Positions 2,257 to 16,760 of a stretch of DNA of 44,055 nt are shown here, one piece after another. Position 1 is the stretch's first letter. Each line of letters starts with the position of its first letter. The position numbers were made by a program, and so were the translations under genes. The notes under the pieces are model-generated. The model saw only the letters and a program-made list of their open reading frames with translations. It was not told the DNA's origin and made no database searches. This stretch comes from a virus: positions 1 to 44,055 of the IMG/VR virus record IMGVR_UViG_3300025508_000038; one strand, written 5' to 3'.

Positions 2257-2496
2257 ATGCCAAAGATTGTAGAAATCAAAGACAAGATGGGCAAACCCAC
2301 ATTACAAGAAGTTATTTCCAGACTTGATGGTATGGTTGAAAACATGGTTTATCGGGGCGAAAGTCGTTTGAATATTGTCCTGGCAAGCTTAAGTTTTTTT
2401 ATCGCACAGGTTAGTAAAGAGTTTGAAGATAAAGAGGTTGCTAAGTTAGTTGATGAACTTTTAGCTCAATATATTGACAAATCTGCCAACAAATAG
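2257..2496 (+). CDS. Unknown 79-aa helical protein
   Basis: Starts MPKIVEIKDKMGKPTLQEV. It is mostly helical, with a hydrophobic stretch around residues 41-53 (IVLASLSFFIAQV) probably too short and interrupted for a firm membrane call. No strong Shine-Dalgarno precedes it. It ends just before the 184-base gap containing the palindrome at 2520. No homology is recognised. Confidence 0.55.
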   Translation: MPKIVEIKDKMGKPTLQEVISRLDGMVENMVYRGESRLNIVLASLSFFIAQVSKEFEDKEVAKLVDELLAQYIDKSANK

Positions 2497-2519
2497 ATTA
2501 TTGTCTATTATTGTCATTT

Positions 2520-2529
2520 TGTCATGACA
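2520..2529. promoter_or_regulatory. Perfect palindrome TGTCATGACA, candidate operator
   Basis: The 10-base palindrome lies in the 2497-2680 gap. TTGTCAT also occurs at 2511-2517 and TGTCAT at 2584-2589, giving three related half-sites before the small-terminase gene. A poor promoter (TTGACT at 2630, TATCCT at 2654) follows. A regulator-binding role is inference. Confidence 0.35.
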
Positions 2530-2680
2530 GCTAAAAACATGATAAGAATGGGGGTTTCAGGATTATTGTATTTTTTTCATTTTTGTCATAAGAGAATAAG
2601 TAAACTTAGTTAAATAATTGAGATAATACTTGACTAGATCTACTCTCTTCAAGTATCCTCACAATACACTTTAGGGTAAA

Positions 2681-3301
2681 GTGGGGGTAGGTATTATTAA
2701 AACTTACGCCTACTCTAATATGCAAAACATGGGATATAGAAAAAATAACTTAGAATATGAACCTATAATCTCTTCTGAAGAAGAAGCTCCCATAGAATAT
2801 TGTAATCTTGATAACTCCCTCAACAGACGACAACGCAACTTTATTTGGATTGCAGTCAATAATCCTCGTTTATCTTTAGTAGAGTGTGCCCACAAAGCTG
2901 GGTATACAAGTCCTCGTCAAATGGCCAATAAACTCATGAACAAGCCTATTATTCGTAAGGAATATAATTATCTTATGAACCAGGCTAAGAAGAAGTATGA
3001 GCTCAACTATGATCGGGCCGTGCAAGATCTCTATGATATTCGGGACAAGGCTATTGAGTCGGGGTCATTTAATGCTGCAATATCTGCTCAGAACTCACTG
3101 CTCAAAGTCGGGGGCTTAATTGTTGATCGTAAAGAAGTTATGTTCGGGAAGGTGGATCAAATGAGTCGGGAAGAAGTAGAAACAAGATTAGCACAGCTCA
3201 TGGGTAATGTTGTTGAGGCTAGTATAGAAAATAAGGTTGACGACCTGGATCTACCTGATCAAGATAATGAAGAAAAAAGGGAAGAAGATAAAAAGGCATA
3301 A
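2681..3301 (+). CDS. terS: Terminase small subunit (TerS)
   Basis: 206 residues. The central part (LNRRQRNFIWIAVNNP, then LSLVECAHKAGYTSPRQMA, then NKPIIRKEYNYL) is the N-terminal helix-turn-helix layout of Terminase_2-like small subunits. It is followed by a helical hairpin, by NAAISAQNSLLKVGGLIVDRKE at the usual oligomerisation place, and by an acidic tail. TerS recognises the packaging site and recruits TerL. The start at GTG 2681 is uncertain; ATG 2720 and 2729 are alternatives. It lies about 8.6 kb from terL rather than next to it. The gene itself contains six TCGGG pentamers. Confidence 0.75.
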   Translation: MGVGIIKTYAYSNMQNMGYRKNNLEYEPIISSEEEAPIEYCNLDNSLNRRQRNFIWIAVNNPRLSLVECAHKAGYTSPRQMANKLMNKPIIRKEYNYLMNQAKKKYELNYDRAVQDLYDIRDKAIESGSFNAAISAQNSLLKVGGLIVDRKEVMFGKVDQMSREEVETRLAQLMGNVVEASIENKVDDLDLPDQDNEEKREEDKKA

Positions 3302-3376
3302 CTAATCTATTGGAGGAGATGAGAAGTAAAAATAGTAAATCAGACTATGCCTTAGTCCGAATATAACAAATTACTT

Positions 3377-3580
3377 CTAATTGTTCAAGAAAACATCTAA
3401 AGCCTTGAATAGGCTCTTACGGGATTTAAACCAAGCTGATTTAATATGTTGGTTGTCTTGATAAACCAAATATCCAACAGTAAAGCCGACTTTATCAATA
3501 TTTGGGTATCGTTGTAAGTCATGCTCTACTGCATCAAATGGTACTATCTTAATGTAATATTTATTTATTGTTTGGCTCAT
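3377..3580 (-). CDS. Unknown 67-aa protein
   Basis: Starts MSQTINKYYIKIVPFDAVEH. It is a mixed alpha/beta small basic protein with a C-terminal SRKSLFKALDVFL helix. No own ribosome site is visible. Its ATG lies inside the end of the tiny membrane gene 3561-3644, so translation is probably coupled. It is the last gene of the second minus-strand operon. Confidence 0.6.
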   Translation of the reverse strand: MSQTINKYYIKIVPFDAVEHDLQRYPNIDKVGFTVGYLVYQDNQHIKSAWFKSRKSLFKALDVFLNN

Positions 3581-3644
3581 TAGGGTTAGAAAATATAAAC
3601 ATTAACATAAGAACGACACAAGAAAATATAAACAGGTTGCTCAT
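3561..3644 (-). CDS. Tiny membrane protein (27 aa)
   Basis: Begins MSNLFIFSCVVLMLMFIFSN and ends NEPNNK: one strongly hydrophobic helix and a short polar tail. A perfect AGGAGG lies 8 bases upstream of the ATG, which argues for real translation despite the length. It overlaps the start of the downstream gene by 20 bases. Function unknown. Confidence 0.55.
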   Translation of the reverse strand: MSNLFIFSCVVLMLMFIFSNPNEPNNK

Positions 3645-3647
3645 TGT

Positions 3648-3878
3648 TTAGATACCTCCTCTAAATAAATAAAATAATGCCTTTAATCTCCATTCAGATA
3701 AATGGCGTAAGTGATCTGGTATTTCATCTGAAACCTCCTCTCTTTCATCTGCCCATAAACCCTCATCTGAACCACAGTCTAAACATAAATTCTTTTCTGC
3801 AATTACATTCCTACTGCCACAACACATGCAACATAAGGGCATGTCAGCTATTTCTTGCCAACTGTATGATCTTTCCAT
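3648..3878 (-). CDS. Zinc-ribbon-like small protein
   Basis: 76 residues with CCMCCGSRN at about 16-24 and CLDCGSD at about 32-38, i.e. two Cys knuckles of a zinc ribbon, followed by an acidic helix and a hydrophobic C-terminus (ALFYLFRGGI). GGGAG lies upstream of ATG 3878, which overlaps the stop of the preceding small gene as TAATG. Possibly a DNA/RNA-binding or transcription-modifying early protein; no named family is recognised. Confidence 0.65.
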   Translation of the reverse strand: MERSYSWQEIADMPLCCMCCGSRNVIAEKNLCLDCGSDEGLWADEREEVSDEIPDHLRHLSEWRLKALFYLFRGGI

Positions 3879-3985
3879 TAGTCTTGCTCCCTTATTTTTT
3901 TTTGTTCTTGCATGTGTTTAATAATTTCAATTAATAAATTATCAAAATCGTCTACATGATATTTATCTAGTAATTCTTCAATCAT
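3878..3985 (-). CDS. Tiny acidic helical protein (35 aa)
   Basis: Starts MIEELLDKYHVDDFDNLL and ends KIREQD. Upstream AAGGAGT and TAATG overlaps at both ends (with genes 3985-4410 and 3648-3878) support translation. Probably a single amphipathic helix pair. No family is recognised. Confidence 0.55.
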   Translation of the reverse strand: MIEELLDKYHVDDFDNLLIEIIKHMQEQKKIREQD

Positions 3986-4410
3986 TATGCTGACTCCTTT
4001 TCTAGTTTAGCCAATACAGTCCATAAAGGTTGTAAGTCATTTTCTTTGATACCAACATCAACACAATTATAATCTGCGTCATAAGATACTTTATGTTCTG
4101 CTACATACCATTGATTGTTTTTAAATAGATAGATCCATTCAATGTCGAACTGCACATCATTATAAAATGTGTGTGCTGAATGATATGTTAAAGGTGGGTC
4201 TATGTTTGCCCTATCATCTAAACATTCTTTAATGGTAGGTCTTAGACAAGACAGATAACCTTGATTGGCTAGTTCTTCTGCTTTTTTTTGGTTGTTGTAA
4301 TGCTCATTAATTAATAAGCCGTTATATTCTGGGTAGCCGTCATAATGACAGTATGTCACTACGACTTGCCCATTAGCTCGCTGATATGCGATATTACTTC
4401 TCGTTCCCAT
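3985..4410 (-). CDS. MGTRS-type phage protein of unknown function
   Basis: 141 residues beginning MGTRSNIAYQRANGQ, then TYCHYDGYPEYNG. The sequence MGTRS-x-I followed by YCH-DGYP--G is a recognisable small family found in many phage and some bacterial genomes, with no established activity known to me. It is the first gene of the second minus operon, preceded by AGGAGGTATAACAA and by the promoter at 4460-4487. Confidence 0.7.
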   Translation of the reverse strand: MGTRSNIAYQRANGQVVVTYCHYDGYPEYNGLLINEHYNNQKKAEELANQGYLSCLRPTIKECLDDRANIDPPLTYHSAHTFYNDVQFDIEWIYLFKNNQWYVAEHKVSYDADYNCVDVGIKENDLQPLWTVLAKLEKESA

Positions 4411-4459
4411 TTGTTATACCTCCTATAGTATTTATTATGGTTTCCAATTCACATTTATA

Positions 4460-4487
4460 ATCATACGCTTCTTAATCTATTTGTCAA
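4460..4487 (-). promoter_or_regulatory. Promoter of the second minus-strand operon
   Basis: Minus strand TTGACA (4482-4487), 16-base spacer, TATGAT (4460-4465). Just upstream lies TGTATACA (about 4493-4500), the same palindrome seen inside plus-strand promoter spacers in this region. Confidence 0.65.
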
Positions 4488-4618
4488 CAATTTGTATACA
4501 GTTAATATTATAAAGATTATTTATATGGCTAGATGTTCGGGATTAATCGCATCTGCCCCCTCTCTTGGTCAAGCTCGTAAATAAAATCATACATACACAA
4601 AGATACATGAAGATCCAA

Positions 4619-4665
4619 TCGGGTCGGGTCGGGATTGTCGGGATTATGTGTCGGGTCGGGTCGGG
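4619..4665 (+). repeat. TCGGG pentamer array, (TCGGG)3 - 1 - (TCGGG)3
   Basis: Three tandem TCGGG copies (4619-4633), a single copy (4638-4642), then three more tandem copies (4651-4665), seven in 47 bases. The same pentamer is scattered on the plus strand from about 2350 to 6416. This is the densest cluster. Confidence 0.85.
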
Positions 4666-4783
4666 AAATGCCTTTAACACAATATAACACACCAGACACA
4701 TGAGCAGGAAAGAACATTTTGTATACTGCTGGCGTCTGGGTTGCCAAGCTCTATCTATATCTATTAAAAATAAACTAAAGTAA

Positions 4784-4814
4784 TTGTTGCTATTTGTATC
4801 CACTATGCTATATT
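4784..4814 (+). promoter_or_regulatory. Promoter with TGTATCCA spacer motif
   Basis: TTGCTA (4787-4792), 16 bases containing TTTGTATCCACTATG, then TATATT (4809-4814). It lies 34 bases upstream of the gene at 4848. The spacer matches those of the promoters at 5603, 5894 and 6542. Confidence 0.55.
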
Positions 4815-4847
4815 AGATGTTCATATAAATTAAATAGGAGAAGTAAT

Positions 4848-5261
4848 ATGATAAGAAAATTTGAACAAGAAGCCATAGTCAATCAGATTATGGAGGGTGT
4901 CCACGAAAGAGTGGATAAGCAAATAACCAAAGCCGAGAAGTCTGCTGACTTCAAAGCTATTAAGAAGTTAGCTGACAAAGTAAAGGAGTGTTATAAAGAA
5001 AAAGAGCAGATTTCAAATAAACTACACACTATGGAGTCTGCTTGTAATGAAGCTATCAGAAACTATAACAGCATGAGCCAAGAAGCCTTGTATGGTATTA
5101 GTTCTTTTACTTATAGCAACAAAGAACTTAATTGGTTTAAACATGATTGGCAGACTAGAGATAGAATATCTGACAAGTTAGCAATAGCATTGCTAGAGCC
5201 AATGGCACAGGAAAGAATAAAAGATATCATCATGTCTATCGCTGATGAGGTATCTAAGTAA
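4848..5261 (+). CDS. Unknown helical protein, 137 aa
   Basis: Starts MIRKFEQEAIVNQIMEGVHE. ATG 4848 is chosen because AGGAGAAG lies 6-12 bases upstream; an in-frame ATG at 4794 has no such site. Lys/Glu-rich and predicted almost wholly helical, with coiled-coil character around residues 15-70. No family is recognised. Its TAA overlaps the next ATG by one base (TAATG). Possibly a DNA-bound or host-modifying early protein. Confidence 0.65.
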   Translation: MIRKFEQEAIVNQIMEGVHERVDKQITKAEKSADFKAIKKLADKVKECYKEKEQISNKLHTMESACNEAIRNYNSMSQEALYGISSFTYSNKELNWFKHDWQTRDRISDKLAIALLEPMAQERIKDIIMSIADEVSK

Positions 5262-5431
5262 TGTGCCTACAGAAATGTCCTAAGTGCAACGAAGACCATA
5301 TTCATTATCTTGGTGATAACTGCACAGGTGAGATGGAAGATTGGCATTGTCAAACTTGTGATGCACACTACGAAGTAGATGTGAATATACATAGACACTT
5401 TGAAACCATGAGGGAGGTGGTGTTTGAATAA
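5261..5431 (+). CDS. Small zinc-ribbon protein (56 aa)
   Basis: Begins MCLQKCPKCNEDHIHYLG. The CPKC pair (residues 6-9) and the CQTC pair (30-33) are about 21 residues apart, a classic zinc ribbon. It ends HFETMREVVFE. The start is coupled to the previous stop and a terminator follows at 5451. Likely binds nucleic acid; role unknown. Confidence 0.6.
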   Translation: MCLQKCPKCNEDHIHYLGDNCTGEMEDWHCQTCDAHYEVDVNIHRHFETMREVVFE

Positions 5432-5450
5432 CAAATAAGAGAAGTAAGAA

Positions 5451-5475
5451 GCCCGACCTAGTGTCGGGTTTTTTT
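5451..5475 (+). terminator. Rho-independent terminator
   Basis: CCCGAC (5452-5457), loop CTAGT, GTCGGG (5463-5468), then seven T. It ends the transcript of 4848-5431. Confidence 0.85.
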
Positions 5476-5543
5476 ATGTCGGGAGTCGGGGTTCGGGATT
5501 ACTTGCCAAGCACAGATAAACACACAATAAGGTAAACACAGTT

Positions 5544-5570
5544 AGATCCAGGAGATCTAGCAGATCCACC
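5544..5570. repeat. Three tandem 9-mers carrying GATC
   Basis: AGATCCAGG, AGATCTAGC, AGATCCACC in direct succession, placing GATC at 5545, 5554 and 5563 with exact 9-base spacing. Further GATC clusters are at 5835-5874 and 6234-6251. Confidence 0.7.
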
Positions 5571-5602
5571 AGGGAGCTGGCAGAAGAAAGATGAATGGAG
5601 TG

Positions 5603-5630
5603 TTGACATTTTGTATACAGTGCGTATAAT
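5603..5630 (+). promoter_or_regulatory. Near-consensus sigma70 promoter
   Basis: TTGACA (5603-5608), 16-base spacer, TATAAT (5625-5630). Both hexamers are perfect. The spacer contains TTTTGTATACAGTGCG with the palindrome TGTATACA. It drives the RNA at about 5637; no protein start follows. Confidence 0.85.
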
Positions 5631-5636
5631 TAATAG

Positions 5637-5773
5637 TATGTAAAGTGCATTACTTATCTGACAGGTAGGGAAGAATCAACTAACAGGAGCAAAAGCTCAA
5701 AGCCCAAAGAGGCACAGATAGATTCCGCGAGTATAAGTGACCACGAACCAAGCCCGTTTAGTCGGGCTTTTTT
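5637..5773 (+). ncRNA. Probable structured small RNA, about 137 nt
   Basis: A perfect promoter (5603-5630) and a strong terminator (5750-5774) bracket about 137 bases with no usable reading frame (the ATG at 5638 is followed at once by TAA). Pairing visible by eye: ACTTAT (5652-5657) with ATAAGT (5733-5738), alternatively TATCTG (5655-5660) with CAGATA (5715-5720); GAATC (5673-5677) with GATTC (5721-5725); and a tight hairpin GAGC-AAAA-GCTC (5687-5698). It matches no RNA family I recognise: not a tRNA, and no 6S or tmRNA signature is seen. Exact ends are inferred from promoter spacing. Confidence 0.65.
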
Positions 5774-5774
5774 A
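5750..5774 (+). terminator. Terminator of the small RNA
   Basis: AGCCCG (5751-5756), loop TTTAGT, CGGGCT (5763-5768), followed by a run of T. Confidence 0.85.
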
Positions 5775-5893
5775 TGAGTCGGGTGTCGGGGTTTCGTTCT
5801 TTCGGTGCAGGGCATTAAACACACAAGCTAATTAGATCCACAATACTAGGTGATCTGGATCTGACCAGGGGATCAGACGCAGAAAGATAGTTG

Positions 5894-5922
5894 TTGACAA
5901 AATGTATCCAATGTGATTCAAT
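5894..5922 (+). promoter_or_regulatory. Early promoter with AATGTATCCA spacer
   Basis: TTGACA (5894-5899), 17-base spacer AAATGTATCCAATGTGA, then TTCAAT (5917-5922). The -10 is weak but preceded by TGA (extended -10-like). Very similar to the promoter at 6542-6572. Confidence 0.6.
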
Positions 5923-5949
5923 AAGCTTTTACAAATTAGGAGAAGTAAT

Positions 5950-6105
5950 ATGTATAAGATAGTAAGGTTTTGTTTTGATGATAATCATCCAGACAACCAC
6001 AAAATAATCAAAACTGGACTAACTGAGGCAGAAGCTCAAGAGCACTGCCAGAGTGAAGAGACACATGAACCAGGCGTTTGGTTTGACGGTTATACGGAGC
6101 AATGA
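5950..6105 (+). CDS. Small conserved phage protein (EAQ-HC / WFDGY type)
   Basis: 51 residues starting MYKIVRFCFDDNHPDNHK and ending VWFDGYTEQ. The pattern MYKIVRF, K-TGLTEAEAQEHC, then S-ET and WFDGY is shared by very small proteins in many unrelated phages, function unknown. AGGAGAAG precedes the ATG, and promoter 5894-5922 lies directly upstream. Confidence 0.75.
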   Translation: MYKIVRFCFDDNHPDNHKIIKTGLTEAEAQEHCQSEETHEPGVWFDGYTEQ

Positions 6106-6171
6106 ATGGATTTGTTTACAATATCAGTTGTTGTACTGGTGGTGGTGTTCCTAATGTCGGGTCGGGTGTAA
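6106..6171 (+). CDS. Possible tiny membrane peptide (21 aa)
   Basis: MDLFTISVVVLVVVFLMSGR plus V: one hydrophobic helix. It starts right after the stop of the preceding gene. A competing 24-residue frame starts at 6102. Two TCGGG pentamers fall inside. Weak support. Confidence 0.35.
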   Translation: MDLFTISVVVLVVVFLMSGRV

Positions 6172-6181
6172 AGTAGCTTTC

Positions 6182-6358
6182 ATGTCTAACCTAGCAACCA
6201 CCACCACTACTACACACACAAGGAAGCCAGGAAGATCTACCAGGTTAGATCAGGGAGGAACTCCTTTTAAAAGATTGGCCAGACAAAATGAGTTTAATGG
6301 CTTTAGACCAGGCGATAAAAACTATAAAGGTAGCGATAACCCAAGATGGAAAGATTAA
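6182..6358 (+). CDS. Small basic protein (58 aa)
   Basis: Begins MSNLATTTTTTHTRKPGRS and ends NYKGSDNPRWKD. It is Thr-rich then basic. The tail resembles the N-NPRWK motif seen in NUMOD/HNH-associated segments, but no nuclease core is present. No clear Shine-Dalgarno. It overlaps the next gene by 13 bases. Moderate to low confidence. Confidence 0.4.
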   Translation: MSNLATTTTTTHTRKPGRSTRLDQGGTPFKRLARQNEFNGFRPGDKNYKGSDNPRWKD

Positions 6359-6555
6359 CTAAATCATTCGGGTACATCGGGTACTGCCACTTAGGAAAGG
6401 CTCGGGTTTGGTCAAGTTCATTAACACAATGTATTGATGAATCCCAGGACTTTATCCAGGCCAACCCAAGATACTTGACCAGGAAAGGTTTATTTATTTA
6501 TGAACTAATAAAAGGTGAGGAAAGAAAGTTTATTAAAAAAGTTTACAAAATGTAG
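6346..6555 (+). CDS. Unknown 69-aa protein
   Basis: Starts MERLTKSFGYIGYCHLGKARV and ends KKVYKM. It is basic and aromatic-rich, with no recognised family. Three TCGGG pentamers lie in its first 70 bases. The promoter of the next gene overlaps its 3' end. Confidence 0.55.
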   Translation: MERLTKSFGYIGYCHLGKARVWSSSLTQCIDESQDFIQANPRYLTRKGLFIYELIKGEERKFIKKVYKM

Positions 6556-11400: not shown

Positions 11401-11902
11401 AACAATATACCCAGAAAAAGATACAGCAAAAATGTTAGGTAAAGAACCAAACTTTGTACCAGTTTCAGTTAAGTATCCTGTTTCAGACTTAATGACTAAA
11501 GAACAATGGGATCAATATACTAATAAATTTTTTAGTCAATTTGATGGTGAAAAAGTAGGTGATTCACGAAAGTGGAATATATTTGAAAACCCATATGAAG
11601 AGTACAATAATCCATATGAAGCTATAAACCCTGAAGTAATGGAAGGTATTGGAAGTATTAGTAAACTTGCAGCTTATCTTTCAGGTGCTGATGATCCGTA
11701 TATTAGCAGCAATGTTCAAATGATGAAACCAGATGTTCTTGTAGAAAAAAAAGCAACAGGCGGCGAAGTTCCCTCTGAAAGACAACAAGCCAAATTATCA
11801 AAAAACAAATTAGATGAAATAGAGGCAGAGTTGCAAGATATACTAGGCTTGTCTAGCATGGGTGGACCAGAGTTAAATATAGGATTTGGTAGAAAGCTTT
11901 GA
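8456..11902 (+). CDS. Giant polyvalent-type virion protein (1148 aa)
   Basis: Hydrophobic Gly/Ala segments at about residues 38-100 precede a Pro-rich linker (about 105-140). Around residue 355 it has FRMQSDFQEEV, resembling the IQSD-W/H motif of large phage polyvalent proteins. Around 770-790 it has KFTDKLKEAIEKQGVNAFKRGG, resembling the ITD-MR----KG--LFKRGG segment that often ends the same module. The C-terminus (SSMGGPELNIGFGRKL) is typical of tailed-phage virion proteins. Polyvalent proteins are thought to be injected with the DNA and to carry several effector domains. Domain identity here is from motif resemblance only. It may be an ejection protein delivered into the host. Confidence 0.55.
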   Translation: MAARKEILSDLSTKISDGNISDAYRTFEQLPVVDQIAVSISPGVGDVLAAYEVGEFGRRAKTNIQDKDRLGAAGNIALSALSGISLIPLFRFLRGARGVTKSATKAVDAPKTLKPPVEEPLPLAPPKEPKVKLPKVEPFEPKGIKQINYQAGDFEFGSKARKWVNGIEQPNITTLGKKVQKLPVEQWVQRLENAGVPKGELRVLNILDESNSIHPKLIMSADAKKSLSRQNLDDYIARSQRDAIQVRNTPKDLLQNPETRPDFINLDTQGQLNYFVRGSGEYRNTPHHNQSLKYPDGKTGDNAYVFDGTGKYNAIQRLGDLRPRLAPEDFKTIQDDLLELKIDPFSQGKNVFRMQSDFQEEVSKRLRPTQIRTFESAKTNFDSVVKIPRVYQEANKSIKDFISVGPDALITGTQRTDLMNNLKPEFVDALRANDEQAMRKILGDDLYKTFTDTEFGTRVPGKYFESSDELDGLASVVEFIESRILGNFAVTPKNIIRKFPELEDFSKIDSNFDSVVKEVFKRTKNVEKIKEKIFKGKPTGFVKPEQQKELIKRLKNYNKEVDAVNDLTASGGRVDIDAIIESLNRDVRDLGIDSLSISPRELERITGKPFTDSLDLTPSDIFNLTDRAGNRVYKGIDFDDSNALSKAYFDDIADQGKTFFDAADGVKVLKKATGINQSQYGMKIDPYFDGGNSKYFKLPVRANILDSANKGDDFLFIGNRQAAAENFDTDIVKTYESAQNEIKKVLKELGVSEQGVVKTIKGTGTEFDGTYLKFTDKLKEAIEKQGVNAFKRGGAVEKSSRFNNFVEDVTTKLNKAANKALDENETAQQIKQFLTSPEARLYIETVLKKNEEPITQDFFTQLENDIYKKQIVKTLINDSSADVDYRAVDKNAFQNYDDYASIPISFYGSPIRSAFGNARLRIPKNTTYEDAEIEIFDKYDFGNEYGGDSYIKNLKKIYDGIQNRNPTDIFTGMEYFAERYGRTIYPEKDTAKMLGKEPNFVPVSVKYPVSDLMTKEQWDQYTNKFFSQFDGEKVGDSRKWNIFENPYEEYNNPYEAINPEVMEGIGSISKLAAYLSGADDPYISSNVQMMKPDVLVEKKATGGEVPSERQQAKLSKNKLDEIEAELQDILGLSSMGGPELNIGFGRKL

Positions 11903-13359
11903 AACTAGCACATCTATCTGATCAAGAAATAAAAGAAACTTTAGTTTTAAAAGAACGATTAGAGTTGCTCAAAAATCAAAAGAAATGCCAAGACAGTTTT
12001 CTTAACTACGTAGAATATATGTGGCCAGAGTTTATATGTGGCCGTCATCACAAAATTTTTGCACAAAAACTAGAAGACGTTGCTAACGGCAAAATTAACC
12101 GATTAATTGTTAATATGCCACCTAGACACACTAAATCAGAGTTTTGTTCTACCTATTTCCCTGCTTGGATCATGGGTAAGCAACCGAATCGTAAAATCAT
12201 GCAGACCACTCACACAGGTGAGCTTGCAGTACGATTTGGTCGTAAAGTTAGAAACATGATGGATACTGACGAATATAAACGTATTTTTACAGAAGTGGAA
12301 CTACAAGCTGATTCTAAGTCAGCAGGTCGTTGGGAAACTAACAAAGGTGGCGAATACTTTGCAGCAGGTGTTGGAGGAGCTATTACGGGTAGGGGTGCGG
12401 ATCTTCTTATCATTGATGACCCACATTCAGAACAAGATGCACTAAGCCCTAGTGCCTTAGAATCTTGTTGGGAATGGTATACCTCTGGACCTAGACAGCG
12501 TTTACAACCAGGAGGAGCCATTATCTTGGTTATGACAAGATGGAGTTCTATAGACTTAACTGCAAAGCTTTTAGACGCACAACAAGAAGAAGCTGCGGAT
12601 CAATGGGAAATAGTAGAGTTTCCCGCTATATTTCCCGAAACCAACAATGCTTTGTGGCCAGAGTTCTGGGCTATAGATGAATTAAATAAAGTAAAAGCTT
12701 CATTACCAGTACAAAAATGGAATGCACAGTGGATGCAGACTCCAACTTCTGAAGAAGGTTCTATTGTTAAACGTGAGTGGTGGAATATATGGGAGGGTAA
12801 TACATTGCCACCTGTTAGTTATATTATACAAAGCTACGATACTGCTTTTAGTAAAAAAGAAAACGCTGACTACTCAGCTATATCTACATGGGGCATATTT
12901 CGTCCTACACCTGATTCACCTGATTGTATTATTTTGCTTGATGCACAAAAAGGCAGATGGGACTTTCCAGAGCTAAAACGTATTGCATATAACGAATATA
13001 AATACTGGGAACCTGATATGACTTTAATTGAAGCTAAAGCTTCTGGGACACCACTTACACACGAACTTAGAAGACTTGGTATCCCTGTTGTTAATTACTC
13101 GCCTACTAGAGGACACGACAAATCTACACGTATGCACTCAGTTGCACCTATTTTTGAATCTGAATTAGTCTATGCACCAGAAAAGAAATTTGCAGAAGAA
13201 ATGATAGAGGAGTGTGCTGCTTTTCCTTTTGGAAAAAATGACGATTTATGTGATACTATGACTCAAGCTCTCATGCGATTTAGAGAGGGCGGTTTAGTTT
13301 CTCTTGACGATGACTATTCAGATCAAGACAAAGCACCAGTTAGAAGGGTATATTACTAA
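11899..13359 (+). CDS. terL: Terminase large subunit (TerL)
   Basis: 486 residues, ATPase plus nuclease motor that packages DNA into the prohead. Walker A-like MPPRHTKSE lies at 73-81, Walker B LLIIDDPHSE with Asp173/Asp174 at 169-178, and a MTRWSS coupling motif at 212-217. The RNase H-like nuclease domain has Asp314 (QSYDTAF), Glu378 (TLIEAKASGT) and Asp448/Asp452 (NDDLCDTM). The start is TTG 11899, overlapping the previous TGA; no good upstream ATG exists. It overlaps the portal start by one base. Confidence 0.95.
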   Translation: MKLAHLSDQEIKETLVLKERLELLKNQKKCQDSFLNYVEYMWPEFICGRHHKIFAQKLEDVANGKINRLIVNMPPRHTKSEFCSTYFPAWIMGKQPNRKIMQTTHTGELAVRFGRKVRNMMDTDEYKRIFTEVELQADSKSAGRWETNKGGEYFAAGVGGAITGRGADLLIIDDPHSEQDALSPSALESCWEWYTSGPRQRLQPGGAIILVMTRWSSIDLTAKLLDAQQEEAADQWEIVEFPAIFPETNNALWPEFWAIDELNKVKASLPVQKWNAQWMQTPTSEEGSIVKREWWNIWEGNTLPPVSYIIQSYDTAFSKKENADYSAISTWGIFRPTPDSPDCIILLDAQKGRWDFPELKRIAYNEYKYWEPDMTLIEAKASGTPLTHELRRLGIPVVNYSPTRGHDKSTRMHSVAPIFESELVYAPEKKFAEEMIEECAAFPFGKNDDLCDTMTQALMRFREGGLVSLDDDYSDQDKAPVRRVYY

Positions 13360-16076: not shown

Positions 16077-16282
16077 TGTCATCAGTTTGGCTTGCTGAAA
16101 AGTTTTTAAAAGAACTTGAAGCTAGAAGAGAGGATACAAAAGACGCTATGCTGTCTGGTTGTAAAGACTTTTCTCAATATGAATATCTGCGGGGCCGTTA
16201 CAGTTCTCTAGCCGATGCAGAAAATATTTTTAGAGAACTGCTAGGAAAAACACAAGAAGATGACCCAGATACAAGTCCCTGA
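16076..16282 (+). CDS. Small helical protein of the head region
   Basis: 68 residues, MSSVWLAEKFLKELEARRED followed by EYLRGRYSSLADAENIFREL. It is helical throughout with two charged amphipathic segments. It resembles small helical proteins found between portal and scaffold in marine podoviruses. It overlaps the next gene by 23 bases. Function unknown. Confidence 0.6.
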   Translation: MSSVWLAEKFLKELEARREDTKDAMLSGCKDFSQYEYLRGRYSSLADAENIFRELLGKTQEDDPDTSP

Positions 16283-16760
16283 TCATGTCGCAAAGTCCAT
16301 AGAGGCAGATCTCAAAGCTAAAGAACAAGACAAAACAGAAACTCCTGAACAAGAAGTAGAAGAAAATACTGCTTATGTTGCTGGAGCAGCAAGGGTTTTA
16401 GACCCTACTTTATTAGAAAAATCCTTTTTAGATCGTATGCCACAACCAACAGGTTGGCGTATGTTAATACTACCTTATGCAGGTAAGGCAGTTACAGAAG
16501 GCGGAATCCACTTAGTACAATCTACAGTAGATAGAGAATCTCTAGCTACTGTTGTTGGCTATGTGGTAAAAATGGGCCCTGATTGCTATGCAGATGCAAA
16601 TAAATTTGCTGAACCATGGTGTCAGGAAAAACAATGGGTATTAATTGGCAGATATGCTGGTGCTCGCTTTAAGTTAGGTGATGAGTCTGAATGTAGAATC
16701 ATTAACGATGACGAAGTGATAGCTACCATACTTGATCCTGATGATATTCTTGCAGTATAA
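16260..16760 (+). CDS. Cpn10/GroES-like co-chaperonin homologue
   Basis: 166 residues. After an acidic 55-residue leader, PQPTGWRMLILPYAGKA, EGGIHLVQST, TVVGYVVKMGPDCYAD, VLIGRYAGARFKL and RIINDDEVIATI follow the beta-strand order of GroES (P-GdRvLv, GGI-LP, G-VvavG, VlfgkYaGtevkl, ii-e-DIlAvi). GroES-like proteins cap the chaperonin. Phages such as T4 (gp31) use their own version to fold the capsid protein. Its location before scaffold and capsid fits that job. The leader and the reduced mobile-loop region are atypical. Confidence 0.72.
   Translation: MTQIQVPDHVAKSIEADLKAKEQDKTETPEQEVEENTAYVAGAARVLDPTLLEKSFLDRMPQPTGWRMLILPYAGKAVTEGGIHLVQSTVDRESLATVVGYVVKMGPDCYADANKFAEPWCQEKQWVLIGRYAGARFKLGDESECRIINDDEVIATILDPDDILAV

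Follow-up and report, generated by a model that had tools for sequence, protein, structure and literature searches.

The terminase genes of the marine phage in IMG/VR record IMGVR_UViG_3300025508_000038, which was analyzed as a complete record of 44,055 bases and is referred to here as the window, are accompanied by numerous copies of the pentanucleotide TCGGG. This word is oriented, is confined in the window to the interval between the genes for the small (terS) and large (terL) terminase subunits and to the edge of that interval, is conserved over large protein divergence, and is independent of gene direction; inside terS, it is maintained through synonymous codon choice. The pattern is real, conserved and apparently undescribed in the open-licence literature searched, where no prior account of TCGGG or of the corresponding words of related phages (GCTYG, TTCCCGT and CTTGCG) was found among the matches listed. 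On the strength of sequence comparison, we lean toward the reading that the TCGGG copies serve as the recognition region (pac site) for the start of DNA packaging.

An oriented word between terS and terL

The window contains exactly 27 copies of TCGGG, compared with 7.4 expected under a first-order and 4.7 under a second-order Markov model. All 27 are on the plus strand, the first at 2352 and the last at 6402-6406, and a whole-record count yields none in the remaining ~90% of the window, the structural operon included. The complement, CCCGA, occurs three times (5452, 12634 and 22889) and only once (5452) within 2352-6416. The binomial probability of finding 27 of 27 copies within 9% of the window is ~1e-28, and the strand split inside 2352-6416 (27 TCGGG vs 1 CCCGA) has p = 2e-7; both values are uncorrected for the choice of the pentamer and the stretch after the fact, and the pattern is replicated in the relatives. 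TCGGG is the most frequent pentamer of this stretch, where GATC-type words are only mildly frequent. The recount agrees with the first-pass annotation, made from the letters of the window, which had put about 27 plus-strand copies in 2352-6416, six of them in terS (recounted at 3013, 3040, 3059, 3108, 3144 and 3166) and seven in 4619-4665, and had described CCCGA as rare and TCGGG as essentially missing from the structural operon. Neither of the two findings that it had named as speaking against a function was encountered: there is no comparable density elsewhere in the record, and none of the close relatives has lost the word. Conservation, the bias among synonymous codons and the orientation all lend good support to its interpretation of the clustering and strand bias as a functional signal.

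Conservation was assessed in loci fetched by TerS protein, with the words counted on the terS strand. TCGGG is in excess in all 80 loci fetched with the window TerS (1035 TCGGG vs 98 CCCGA). A second sample of 79 new loci was fetched with the TerS of L191 alone, so as not to select by the word; L191 itself came from a scan for the word, which therefore led to the clade but not to these particular loci. This sample contains 2419 TCGGG vs 528 CCCGA, with an excess in 75 loci, a tie in one and fewer TCGGG in three; where copies are few, the contig in several cases stops shortly after terS. In 43 distinct loci, TCGGG is densest 500-1000 bases past the start of terS, with 26.9 copies per kb compared with 0.4 for CCCGA. 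Finally, in a blind scan, viral contigs were searched with a 15-mer of the word and 119 loci were analyzed. An asymmetric array is present in 67 of these, 32 of which encode a TerS relative, on the strand of the word in 32 of 32 cases; the 35 array loci without TerS are mostly GC-rich contigs, and four of the 35 have a TerL of the same family at >=60%. Among the 28 blind-scan loci with a GC fraction below 0.47 and at least six copies, TerS is found in 22, again always on the same strand. The word is present in phages of 33-59% GC and, as expected of a pac site, lies in or beside terS.

The codon evidence comes from the window clade, in which 58 distinct terS sequences were compared. CGG accounts for 114 of the 146 arginine codons that are placed to complete the word, as opposed to 18 of 477 at other arginine positions (Fisher p 1.6e-74, relatedness ignored), and 15 other window genes have only two CGG codons in total. 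The codons at site 3108 are GTC in 49/49 and GGG in 45/49 sequences, those at site 3166 are AGT in 48/48 and CGG in 47/48, and sites 3059 and 3144 are poorly kept. Among conserved columns that are four-fold or more degenerate, the nine motif columns are more uniform than the 47 others (p = 0.009).

The orientation appears to be a property of the DNA and not of transcripts. A cytosine-5 methylase gene on the minus strand (PF00145, E 1e-39 to 1e-44) contains 10, 10 and 6 antisense copies of TCGGG in L495, L531 and L517, respectively, with one CCCGA in each gene; an RNA or transcription-sense motif was rejected because of these antisense copies. In the GCTYG clade, terS is inverted and the word is still on the terL strand. 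The polarity expected of a pac site is found throughout the TCGGG, GCTYG and TTCCCGT phages, which carry the word on the terL strand, also when terS is inverted; the exception is the SAR11 single-cell assembly L635, whose terL strand has the complement of GCTTG, CAAGC. Given the antisense copies in the methylase genes and the retention of the terL strand when terS is inverted, transcript-level explanations are unlikely. A G-quadruplex function was also rejected because isolated copies are kept in terS and the GCTYG clade has no G-runs.

Words of other lineages were identified by de novo k-mer enrichment upstream of TerL. HTVC027P and 023Pt_psg01 relatives have GCTTG or GCTCG (GCTYG) in the terS-terL interval, L656 has TTCCCGT (15 copies vs 0.15 expected), and L637 and L623 have CTTGCG. 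Because 56 of the 289 control stretches taken downstream passed the maximum of the first-order Markov null, this null was judged too lenient for coding sequence and was replaced by the downstream maximum. Of the 204 upstream stretches (up to 6 kb), 55 score above the best of the 289 downstream controls, and all but one of these carry lineage words; the 55 are not independent phages, because several records were fetched twice (e.g., G001, L050 and L159). With the 6-kb limit upstream of terL, the window itself has no TCGGG score, its arrays lying further upstream. Several other enriched sequences were seen in these comparisons. In L656 (7404-9353), an HTVC023P-type contig, 18 TCCCGT are found on one strand of the terS-terL interval, mostly as TTCCCGTTCCCGT pairs. 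A second word, TAGATC, is present on the terL strand upstream of terL in G003, L064 and L146 (in G003, 18 copies vs 2.7 expected, with 6 on the opposite strand); in the window, TAGATC is spread genome-wide, with 28 and 14 copies on the two strands. Upstream of terL in L648, TACGAA/GTACGAA is enriched on both strands and is palindrome-like, unlike the oriented words.

A proposed role in packaging and the candidate reader of the word

The L191-clade records G009-G011 contain matches to DNA polymerase (PolA), primase and helicase of the HTVC027P/HTVC023P type. No match to these proteins of the other clades is found in G001, G002 or the circular G003. In G003, a Prim-Pol/DUF3987 protein (L290:2523-4646, plus strand) stands in place of this set, a replication-module swap. 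Near the arrays, it is the terminase that is common to both TCGGG clades; portal and capsid-region genes are shared as well. The two clades thus have in common the terminase and structural proteins and not the main replication proteins, which points to packaging.

If the word is a packaging signal, its copies would make up a distributed, oriented pac region that is read by the terminase, probably by a multivalent TerS. A TerS ring in which each helix-turn-helix (HTH) reads about 5 bases could bind many copies at once, so that recognition would be strong and phage-specific although each contact is weak. The fixed orientation would set the direction of packaging by TerL, toward terL and the structural genes, and the possession of a separate word by each lineage (TCGGG, GCTYG, TTCCCGT or CTTGCG) would allow the terminase to distinguish its concatemers from the ones produced by related phages in the same cell. 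The TerS of SF6 has a DNA-binding domain that occludes 3-5 bp and makes many weak contacts as part of a ring (PMC4737164). In the L191-clade loci, copies are spaced with a period of 5.3 bp, that is, half a helical turn (distances of 12-80 bp; score 424 vs a permutation maximum of 312 in 500), although mixed 5- and 6-bp tandem units alone could yield part of this period. A wider proposal, which we put forward only tentatively, is that these phages employ a new packaging address, a kilobase-scale field of one short oriented word that would be contacted by many terminase HTHs with half-turn phasing (5.3 bp), the switching of words between lineages serving as a self/non-self code.

Several observations weigh against packaging as the function or against TerS as the reader. 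For SF6 TerS, the binding of pac is reported to lack sequence specificity (PMC4737164), and sequence reading by the TerS family is not established. The region extends over kilobases and greatly exceeds in length the pac sites of the papers cited here; the L191 clade also has copies upstream of terS, so that the word is not strictly confined to the terS-terL interval there; and no strong word is seen in HTVC023P-clade phages. In the TerS tree, the window-clade TerS stands apart from the L191-clade TerS despite the shared word (fork 87/90, long branches). The TerS proteins of L637 and of L238, which is TCGGG-type, are 60% identical, yet the L637 phage uses CTTGCG. Residues of the TerS recognition helix have no clear relation to the word, and the helices do not sort by it. 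With word labels assigned by hand from the enrichment results, the TerS tree requires 9 word changes vs 23.5 in shuffles and the TerL tree (which lacks L691) 7 vs 19.9, and 22 of the 23 TCGGG rows of the TerL tree fall on one side of a weak fork (88/50), the exception being L168. Overall, the sequences provide a weaker pointer to TerS itself as the reader than to packaging.

A small PD...ExK nuclease gene that follows terS outside the window clade, and whose 3' end holds the first array, was considered as another reader and rejected because it is absent from all 80 window-clade TerS loci and from G001-G003. Relatives of this nuclease are present in L279, L281, L282, L656 and the L191 clade. 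In HTVC027P (L280), it is an unannotated gene (16216-16587, plus strand) between terS and terL, overlapped by the annotated minus-strand gp32; gp32 was discarded as a case of antisense GCTTG because its array is probably the 3' end of the nuclease gene.

Alternative explanations

The first-pass annotation offered three candidate functions, of which a pac site near terS is the best supported one, whereas a Chi-like signal and a T7-primase or replication signal are disfavored. The strongest competitor to packaging is a function that the annotation did not list. Another DNA-binding protein of the phage might use the word in transcription control, in segregation, or as a methylation-dependent switch via the phage C5 methyltransferase. 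The clustering of words in intergenic gaps and terminator-like arms, the C5 methylases of both TCGGG clades and the CpG within TCGGG are all compatible with such a role, but the orientation ignores transcription and, of the window genes up to terL, only terS is also found in L191-clade records (genes outside the interval were compared non-exhaustively), so that we consider it unlikely. The C5 cytosine methyltransferase genes seen in the two clades include L289:17386-19173, L495:5244-6296 and L531:3151-4335, all on the minus strand; control of the sites by methylation of the CpG is conceivable.

A replication signal, with the words acting as iterons or primase sites of a phage origin that are read by an initiator or primase, is improbable. 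The oriented arrays are iteron-like and lie near the point where the gene strand changes from minus to plus, and the first-pass annotation pointed out that tandem copies create GGGTC, the T7 primase site. However, GGGTC occurs 15 and 15 times on the two strands of the window, there is no switch of GC skew at the array, and the copies are scattered over at least 4 kb. Moreover, the window and L191 clades share the word but not PolA, primase and helicase, none of which, in the form known from the other clades, was detected in G003 with its Prim-Pol.

More improbable still is a Chi-like signal of the host RecBCD or AddAB that protects the free DNA end after packaging cleavage. Chi- and KOPS-type bacterial motifs are short, strand-oriented, over-represented words spread through the whole chromosome. 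The window word is likewise short and oriented, and G-rich in the window clade, and, considering the polarity of Chi, its orientation would suit protection of the end near the arrays; unlike these motifs, the phage words are limited to one interval, with zero copies in ~90% of the window, and change with the phage lineage. HTCC1062 is the recorded host strain of both HTVC023P and HTVC027P, and only HTVC027P has the GCTTG word; the single TCGGG word extends across phages of 33-59% GC, which probably infect unlike hosts. In a SAR11 single-cell assembly, GGCTTG occurs 168 times per ~1.2 Mb, near a rough mononucleotide expectation of ~150 (30% GC assumed); this check covered three SAR11 assemblies and one hexamer, and these may not be hosts of TCGGG phages. 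Neutral expansion of short repeats without function would account for the slippage-prone look of tandem copies of 5-8 bp but hardly deserves consideration, given that isolated terS copies are kept by synonymous choice, that each clade has one orientation, that different words occupy the same interval, and that downstream controls are exceeded.

Known pac sites, the phage and the feature map

The TerS proteins of SPP1 and SF6 presumably belong to the Terminase_2 family of Pfam. The window resembles these phages in a small terminase of the same family (the window score being borderline), a recognition region at the terS gene, direct repeats, and a ring of HTHs with many weak contacts (PMC4737164). 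The SPP1 pac differs in that its direct repeats come in three sets around the start of terS, and the SF6 DNA-binding domain has little sequence preference, whereas the window has one 5-bp word in at least 27 copies, kilobases long in extent, in one orientation and clade-wide. The SPP1 pac uses several contact points, and the P22 pac, like the window word, is inside the terS gene and asymmetric, with a length of 22 bp (PMC9611059). Unlike the window, P22 has a single site with no repeated word. The P1 pac consists of repeated GATC hexamers in and beside the terS-type gene pacA and is compact (~160 bp) and methylation-controlled; it shares with the window a short repeated word by a terS-type gene, but the window word is dispersed. 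Based on these sequence comparisons, the system can be filed as a variant of pac, as a candidate and not a proven member.

Three publications describe the recognition of the phage's own DNA by the TerS of pac phages as unresolved (PMC9611059, PMC7672466, PMC4737164). With a word beside terS that is obvious, oriented and specific to the lineage, this natural family offers defined DNA targets with cognate proteins, the words of other lineages being built-in negative controls, and the family includes cultivated SAR11 phages. If correct, the packaging interpretation would account for the choice of the right genome by each of several related phages in a co-infected cell.

The proteins identified in the window are TerS (phrog_51), TerL (phrog_38), portal, an exonuclease VIII-like protein and a 2OG-Fe(II) oxygenase. 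By TerL, the closest annotated relatives (58-61% identity) are phage 023Pt_psg01, Pelagibacter phages HTVC023P and HTVC027P, and phage DSL-LC04. L620 (TerL 82%) is a contig binned as a Gammaproteobacteria metagenome-assembled genome, which is weak evidence as to the host of the window phage. The relatives G003 (54,742 bases, with a 148-base end repeat) and G011 (91 bp end repeat) close on themselves, which fits circularly permuted genomes but does not prove permutation; comparison with G003 suggests that the window lacks ~10 kb, replication genes among them. Window TerS is 28% identical to L191 TerS and scores 25.4 bits against PF03592 (Terminase_2), below the cut-off of 26.1, compared with 28.5 bits for L191 TerS. 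In the window TerS model, HTH helices are predicted at 49-60, 66-72 and 78-87 (pLDDT ~90); a fold search of this model against PDB gave no match with E < 0.001 and one weak hit, a phage protein (2ao9).

Table. Features of the terS-terL interval of the window
Feature	Position	Strand	Evidence
Lone TCGGG upstream of terS, within ORF (open reading frame) 2257-2496	2352..2356	+	Count; many relatives also have a copy ~330 bp upstream of terS
terS, terminase small subunit (HTH, Terminase_2-like)	2681..3301	+	phrog_51, E 8.6e-8
Six TCGGG in terS, in all three reading frames	3013..3170	+	Count; codon conservation
Lone TCGGG, non-coding gap	4537..4541	+	Count
Array of seven TCGGG (two tandem triplets)	4619..4665	+	Count; kept in relatives
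CCCGA...TCGGG hairpin with T run, terminator-like; the word is one arm	5452..5475	+	Read from sequence
Four TCGGG	5464..5497	+	Count
Three TCGGG, the first in a second terminator-like hairpin	5762..5790	+	Count; sequence read
Two tandem TCGGG	6157..6166	+	Count
Three TCGGG	6368..6406	+	Count
terL, terminase large subunit; marks the far end of the interval, on the strand of the word	11899..13359	+	phrog_38, E 1.4e-107

The early stretch contains two additional repeats. The nonamer GAGAAGTAA has four copies in the window (3321, 4838, 5439 and 5940), all in this stretch and some just ahead of gene starts, and three of the four window copies of TTTGTATAC are located there as well.

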